A stretch of 37,619 bases of DNA, taken from NCBI GenBank assembly GCA_012516175.1, contig JAAYWZ010000075.1, positions 1-37,619 on the forward strand. Reading direction: 5' to 3'. A program made the position numbers and the translations under genes. The notes under the pieces are model-generated. The model did no database searches, had not been told where the DNA came from, and saw only the letters and a program-made list of their open reading frames with translations. Each line of letters begins with the position of its first letter. Positions within the stretch are counted from its first letter, which is position 1. The stretch comes from Bacilli bacterium (GTDB taxonomy: Bacteria > Bacillota_I > Bacilli_A > Haloplasmatales > Haloplasmataceae). Positions 10,322 through 15,055 of this stretch are shown here, in pieces.

Positions 10322-10424
10322 ATGTGCACCTCCTTCAATTAATACTAAGACTCGCCATACAGGTAACAGTAATTGTTTTTAAGACCTGTTCTGAGCGGTT
10401 GTAGTTACACGCGGTGCCTACAAC
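10322..10424 (-). ncRNA. L21 leader (autoregulatory 5' UTR of rplU)
   Basis: About 100 nt of untranslated leader between the mapped promoter and rplU. It folds into a 7-bp stem (10418-10424 with 10399-10405) enclosing the GCACCGCGTGTAA element typical of the Bacillota L21 leader, and a second hairpin with a 6-bp arm (10384-10389 with 10360-10365). Position, promoter and sequence fit the known leader family in which L21 is thought to bind its own mRNA. The call rests on recognition of position and core sequence, not on a covariance-model search. Confidence 0.75.
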
Positions 10425-13822: not shown

Positions 13823-15055
13823 TTAAATATACCTTGCTTCACGTAAACTTACATAACCTTCCGTCCCAATGATAATATGGTCTAGTACTTCAATCCCCAT
13901 TAACTCACCGATTTCAACTAATCTTTTGGTGACATTGATATCTTGTGGACTTGGTGTAGGATCGTTGGATCGAATGAAGCATGCTTCACCCTTCCACAGA
14001 ACCGTACGTACGACTTTCACCGTATACGGCTCGCTGGTGTTACCCTGTCTTTCTTCCCCCTGCTTACCTCATTACAAGAAAACTTTGGGTACTACAAAGA
14101 CTCCGTTACCCTATGCATAAACACTTAGGTAATCCCTGCCTTTTGTCTAATAATAGATTCGTAGTGATTAGGTATCCCTTTTGATGTTTTCCTATTACCT
14201 AGGACTAGTGGACAACCCTTACGATGATGGAACTAGCGAAAAAAGATCCATCATTTTGTCCAACTTACCTCTTAACTATCGTAGATAAGTGAGATTCCAC
14301 TCCTATCCATCTAGGATTCAAGCAGTATAGCCTTTACCATCCACTACTTGGCTAAAAAGAACCTTTCTAGATAGTTTCAAAAGATTCTCTCTTTACGCAT
14401 CATGCTTTTGTCCCTCTATAAGGTTTCCCTGCAAGGTTAGATGCTCACCAGAGAACATTGTAAGGAGTTCTCGATTACTAAGTAATCACTACTATTAGAC
14501 CCTGTGCAGGCGCACTCCGCTGGGATGATTATGAACCACAATAATTGAAGCACAACCATGGCGTAAAGCTTCCTTAAAGACTTCAATGGGACTAACATTT
14601 GCCCTTGTTAAGGTACCTTTAAAGAGGACTTTCTTTGCGAGAATTCGATTTTTCGCATCTAAATAAATGCCAATAAAATGCTCCTGTTCTAGTTGCTTAA
14701 TTTCTTCCGCAATGTATTCTGCACATTCACTGGGCGATTTGATTTGATAACCACGCTCAATTACCGCACCATTAATTCTAACTGCAAGTTCAATTGTCGC
14801 TAGTAACTGAATCGCTTTAGTCCTGCCTATACCTTTTATGTTTAATAGTTCATCAATTGTAAGATGTTTAAGACTAGCGAGATGAGGATACTTATTAATA
14901 AGTTCCTGTGCTAAAGTAAGGGCGGATTTCTGTTTCGAACCAGTTCGAAGTATAATGGCAATTAACTCGACATTGCTTAAATAATTAGCACCTCTTTTCT
15001 CTAGTTTTTCTCGTGGCCGTTCTGATTCAGGTAAATCTTTGATTTTATAATGCAT
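13823..15055 (-). CDS. radC: RadC JAMM-domain protein, two exons split by a group II intron
   Basis: RadC (MPN/JAMM metalloprotein of uncertain role, once linked to DNA repair). Exon 1 is 14516-15055 (180 codons) and exon 2 is 13823-13963 (46 codons plus stop); joined they give 226 residues, the normal RadC length. The N-terminal helix-hairpin-helix ([15 protein letters not shown]) is in exon 1. The metal-binding JAMM motif H175-N-H177-P-S-G180 ends exon 1, and D181-P-T-P-S185-P-Q-D188 opens exon 2, so the join restores H-x-H-P-x-G-x(3)-P-S-x-x-D exactly, in phase 0. Unspliced, exon 1 reads six residues into the intron and stops. AAGGAGGG lies 4 nt before the ATG. The position between the spoIIB-like gene and the spoIVFA region matches B. 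subtilis. Confidence 0.93.
13964..14515 (-). mobile_element. ORF-less group II intron (552 nt) inside radC, sense orientation
   Basis: The 5' end is GTGCGCC at 14515 and the 3' end AC at 13964. Domain V is the 34-nt element at 13999-14032 (minus GAGCCGTATACGGTGAAAGT continuing to ACGGTTC), with the AGC triad and a GAAA tetraloop. Domain VI (13964-13998) folds as a hairpin with a bulged A at 13970, seven bases from the 3' splice site. EBS1 (TTCGCT, 14235-14240) lies in the loop of an 8-bp stem and pairs with exon bases AGCGGA (one G-U). EBS2 (GGATGG, 14337-14342) lies in another loop and pairs with exon TCATCC (one G-U). Having both EBS1 and EBS2 argues against class IIC. The start resembles that of Ll.LtrB. 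No reverse transcriptase/maturase frame is present on either strand, so splicing would need a maturase in trans. This accounts for the 550-base stretch without a gene. Confidence 0.93.

Follow-up and report, generated by a model that had tools for sequence, protein, structure and literature searches.

The radC gene in the 37,619-nt stretch of DNA analysed here (the window) is split inside its JAMM motif by a group II intron without an open reading frame. We consider it likely, with a probability of about 0.8, that this intron is an immobile ribozyme that has lost its ORF and only splices, that RadC would be made only after splicing, and that a degenerate maturase encoded in a second intron of the same genome, in recA, possibly helps.

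The split gene occupies 15055..13823 on the minus strand. By translation and Pfam matching of the joined product, exon 1 (14516..15055, minus strand) holds codons 1-180 and ends in HNHPSG; by translation and Pfam, exon 2 (13823..13963, minus strand) starts with DPTPSPQD and holds codons 181-226 and the stop. Between them lies the insert (13964..14515, minus strand; GUGCG...AAC), placed after codon 180 in phase 0 and in sense orientation to radC, so that the HxH half of the JAMM motif falls in exon 1 and the SxxD half in exon 2. The position, the 552-nt length, a GTGCG start and an AC end had all been given by the first-pass annotation and hold on the minus strand, as does its statement that exact removal of the insert rebuilds a 226-residue RadC: the joined exons match Pfam RadC at 7.1e-46 and UPF0758_N at 3.2e-28. 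By translation, the insert is closed in all three frames, with the first stop six codons inside the intron and four consecutive stop codons preceding exon 2. The restored RadC, the closed frames and the Rfam match given below confirm the same annotation's central claim, that a group II intron without an ORF lies in sense orientation within the JAMM motif of the chromosomal gene radC. The neighbours are ordinary chromosomal genes (obg, M50 and M23 peptidases, a Mur ligase and endonuclease III). Elsewhere in the window, a ribosomal protein L21 leader (10338-10410, 57 bits) lies upstream of rplU.

Rfam, translation, shuffles and full-length alignment were used to assign the insert. In the covariance-model search that had been proposed as a check, Rfam RF00029 (domain V/VI) matched the 3' end of the insert, 14034..13964, its last 71 nt, with 61.9 bits (E 5.6e-10, gathering score 40). 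Within this match lie the 34-nt domain V with its AGC catalytic triad (13999..14032, minus strand) and, by RF00029 and folding, a domain VI hairpin with a shortened arm (13966..13996, minus strand), whose bulged adenosine (13970, minus strand), 7 nt from the 3' splice site, is the branch point predicted by fold and sequence. Pairing and covariation place IBS1 (AGCGGA) in the last six bases of exon 1 (14516..14521, minus strand); all six pair, one as G-U, with EBS1 (UUCGCU; 14235..14240, minus strand), an assignment backed by covariation over 35 introns. Many radC-site introns also pair 5-7 bases between EBS2 and IBS2; the best candidate in the window has 5 bases and lies elsewhere in the loop. 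Domain IV is a stub of a few bases from which the maturase-binding part is gone. The 552-nt insert folds 4.1 standard deviations better than dinucleotide shuffles. Because the Rfam D1-D4 models gave no match above cut-off on the 5' part of the intron, domain I was judged from relatives. Judged from its sequence, the radC intron is a complete group II ribozyme of type IIA and of the mitochondrial-like (ML) kind, a label based on the LtrA-like proteins of its relatives and on the class that a review gives to intron O.i.I2, with no separate subgroup model.

The site had been described as unusual, a view that does not survive comparison with other genomes. We scanned a named genome collection for HNHPSG followed by GTGYG, a pattern that selects for the radC site and is uninformative on how often other genes carry introns. 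At least 49 other loci, in at least 48 genomes, have RadC split at the same residue, 180/181. Nearly all of those among the matches listed belong to Bacillaceae, unlike the host of the window, which by the genome sampling used lies outside that family. These Bacillaceae counts derive from the named collection and not from the class and phylum samples, in which radC-site introns were found in 1 of the 395 genomes sampled from the window's own class, the window's, and in the same single genome for the phylum. Outside Bacillota, one locus in a Calditrichia metagenome bin (L102) has an intron at the radC site that encodes a YADD protein of 661 aa. The remaining pattern matches were set aside as intact radC of other groups or as unrelated.

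Among the matches listed, the RNA of the window intron aligns over its full length with 34 complete radC-site introns at 56-72% identity, the best relative reaching 72% over 551 columns; radC exon 1 is about 50-52% identical at the nucleotide level to that of L119, L051 and L016 (L087, with a second intron in that stretch, was left out). The Bacillaceae introns, for example L119 and L051 with an intact intron-encoded protein (IEP) and the ORF-less L042, share with the window the codon 180/181 boundary, a near-identical domain V and matched EBS1 and IBS1. The window forms 133 of the 139 pairs in the family consensus structure, 21 of them compensatory relative to the commonest pair, against 55-63 pairs in slid controls that are somewhat lenient in that the consensus includes the window's own row. 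At 552 nt, the window intron is shorter than every complete relative among the matches listed, the next being 705 nt. Several radC-site genes carry a second intron at residue 161, and some of these are ORF-less.

The protein encoded at the radC site is eroded in most relatives. Among the matches listed, a YADD protein is present in 6 of the 34 complete relatives and absent from 28, in which the longest frames run from 579 aa down to 26 aa, some of the longer ones possibly reflecting recent frameshifts and not old remnants. Halolactibacillus species have radC introns with remnants of 211-225 aa. Besides the window, two complete relatives among these matches (L039 and L042) are ORF-less. In the RNA tree, terminal branches have a median length of 0.045 for introns with YADD versus 0.13 for those without (Mann-Whitney p 0.008), which fits YADD introns as recent mobile arrivals and eroded introns as old residents. 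A set of 25 genomes whose radC intron is eroded or ORF-less included 8 with no TIGR04416 match at 1e-5.

The window's genome yielded two group II introns, one in radC and one in recA. The annotation had described the radC intron as having no maturase, which stands for the insert itself and fails for the genome: the recA intron, inserted after GGRALKF (predicted splice join AAATTC/TATGCG) and 1792 nt long, encodes a 382-aa protein matching Pfam Intron_maturas2 (9.7e-7) and LtrA (1.8e-22). In this protein RYKNKF takes the place of the RYADDF of active relatives, about 75 residues preceding this motif are missing, and there is no endonuclease domain; domain X is kept. It is the one match of a PF01348 search of the genome and, unlike in radC-site relatives, the only maturase found is the one in recA. 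No further maturase or reverse transcriptase (RT) was found by maturase-domain or TIGR04416 searches of the draft assembly, whose 207 contigs could lack a multi-copy intron with an intact IEP, and no RVT_1 match at E <= 0.1 was found in the genome by a search that the degenerate recA maturase also escapes. A weak TIGR04416 match on contig C202 is by sequence a Y-family DNA polymerase and not an RT. The search for other copies of the radC intron, also proposed as a check, gave a single occurrence in the genome.

The recA intron also occurs in G001, another species of the genus, again 1792 nt long with a 382-aa frame, and the RNA parts are 93-97% identical between the two genomes. The maturase has a dN/dS of 0.11, from one species pair with a dS of 1.44, near saturation, and this sequence comparison indicates that it is under purifying selection. 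Its nearest match is the recA IEP of Peribacillus cavernae (36-37% identity), compared with about 27% identity to radC-site family proteins. The recA intron is of another site family than the radC intron, with a large tree distance between them. The same recA site is occupied in 2 of 48 Bacillaceae-type genomes tested. The P. cavernae recA intron encodes an intact 683-aa IEP, and that of Streptohalobacillus salinus a maturase of 562 aa in which YKERF replaces YADD.

The annotation had left it undecided whether RadC is made through splicing or is switched off by the intron. Covariation of EBS1 favours splicing. Of the 35 radC-site introns (the window's and 34 relatives), 25 have an EBS1 that pairs 6/6 with the intron's own exon, whereas 5000 permutations gave 5.8 such introns on average and at most 14. 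The result is strong but carries no formal probability, as the related sequences are not independent. Most relatives have TCN serine codons at IBS1 and a correspondingly different EBS1; the window has an AGY serine codon matched by its own EBS1. That EBS1 tracks synonymous exon changes argues that splicing of radC-site introns is under selection. The other option, in which the intron no longer splices, or does so only conditionally, and leaves a truncated RadC without SxxD, is in our judgement unlikely. The stop six codons into the intron would produce such a truncation, and laboratory Bacillus subtilis tolerates the loss of radC, but the branch adenosine, domain V and EBS1 are all preserved, and changes in the exon are followed by EBS1. 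A radC that is never spliced should also show decay of exon 2, and none was found: over its 46 residues, the window exon is 67% identical to the outgroup G009, versus 57% for three intron-free relatives. Exon 2 is therefore as conserved as in intron-free relatives and has not decayed behind the stop codons, which disfavours an off switch.

If the intron is spliced, the question is whether it needs a protein. A serious rival, which we regard as quite possible though short of probable, is that the radC intron splices without a maturase, like C.te.I1 of Clostridium tetani, and that the recA maturase serves its own intron only. The fully kept ribozyme core (the 133 family pairs) and the stub of domain IV speak for this, as does the descent of the recA maturase from the recA-site and not the radC-site family. 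Against it, most relatives keep an eroded but open maturase frame, suggesting that the RNA benefits from protein, and the genomes of the ORF-less L039 and L042 have group II IEP genes elsewhere. It is much less probable that the intron is a passenger that owes its mobility to an active IEP working in trans, the situation in Thermosynechococcus; such mobilisation of ORF-less introns is documented (PMC2882425), but here the radC intron is single-copy, RVT_1 has no match in the draft genome, and the only maturase found lacks both YADD and the endonuclease domain. Least credible of all is an artefact of assembly or binning. The genome is indeed a draft in 207 contigs, yet the insert sits 14 kb into its contig, flanked by standard chromosomal genes (obg, endonuclease III, a Mur ligase), and isolates have insertions at the same point.

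We therefore return to the immobile, splicing-only radC intron as our preferred reading. It would have come from a family homing to radC codon 180/181, from an ancestor whose domain IV held a reverse transcriptase/maturase ORF, later deleted to a few bases, a loss that would have left it immobile and able only to splice. Excision would proceed through EBS1-IBS1 recognition and a lariat at the bulged adenosine of domain VI, joining AGCGGA to GATCCT, and RadC protein would appear only after splicing of the radC transcript. On the best reading, two site-specific homing introns settled in radC and recA and lost mobility, both were kept because the host genes need splicing, and both RecA and RadC would be made by splicing. 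The genome would then be in an organelle-like state, with two group II introns in DNA-repair genes and one RT-dead 382-aa maturase. The likeliest role of this maturase is to help its own intron; in addition it may, by analogy with MatK in chloroplasts, act in trans on the one in radC. Since the radC and recA introns come from different site families, such trans action is not predicted by kinship. The fuller proposal, that all group II introns of this genome are immobile residents of two repair genes and that the RT-dead recA maturase is a general splicing factor for both, is tentative and in our estimate falls somewhat below even odds. If true, this arrangement in a bacterium would parallel that of MatK in chloroplasts and represent a stage on the way from a retroelement to a host-dependent intron.

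MatK, the maturase of the plant chloroplast trnK intron, resembles the recA maturase in its degenerated RT motifs and retained domain X, in a host gene that is essential or important, and in the presence of ORF-less introns elsewhere in the genome. Unlike MatK, the recA maturase is bacterial and has only one candidate client intron, and its action on more than one intron is putative. The kinds of element involved are already known: group II introns in radC and recA, degenerate maturases (MatK) and ORF-less introns. O.i.I2 of Oceanobacillus iheyensis is an ML-class intron in radC with a degenerate IEP (PMC4424553); compared by description and not by site, it shares with the window intron the host gene, the lost RT motifs and a splicing-only interpretation, but it keeps a maturase ORF whereas the window intron has none. 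The same review calls degenerate IEPs and ORF-less introns rare in bacteria and names one degenerate IEP (PMC4424553). The group II intron in Geobacillus kaustophilus recA (Chee and Takami 2005) is reported to be active with the host unharmed (cited in PMC3522654 and PMC4424553). Compared by that description, it shares recA as host gene with an intron of the window's genome, whose IEP is, in contrast, RT-dead. C.te.I1 is, like the radC intron, a bacterial group II intron without an ORF that lies in a protein gene; its genome has no IEP-related gene, whereas the window's has the recA maturase, and it splices upstream of GUGYG, whereas the radC intron boundaries are canonical. We found no later report of a radC-site intron series in the full-text literature searched, which leaves most subscription journals outside it.

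In the accepted model, spliceosomal introns have group II introns as their ancestors; the passage of a mobile retroelement into an immobile, protein-dependent intron has so far been visible mainly in organelles. At the radC site, dozens of bacterial species present graded stages, from intact YADD through remnants of 200-580 aa to no ORF. Some of these stages occur in cultured strains, which makes the loss of mobility directly testable in bacteria, and likewise the service of several introns by one degenerate maturase.

Some further observations concern radC at other loci. In the window's own family (G004), radC at about C81:24472-25815 carries a different ORF-less group II intron (L140; RF02004 143 bits, with an RF00029 match) eight bases upstream, inside the HNHP codons (CATC/GTGCGACATG...CTAT/CATCAGGAGAC), which is a second, independent insertion into the same motif. 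At another locus (L142; G003:C26), two incomplete copies of the 3' half of radC, carrying stops or frameshifts, lie downstream of an intact radC; an element that integrates in radC may have left them there. The cultured S. salinus DSM 22440 (L148, L052) has three group II introns in repair genes: an ORF-less one of about 511 nt at radC residue 161, one with a 339-aa remnant at radC residue 180, and one in recA.
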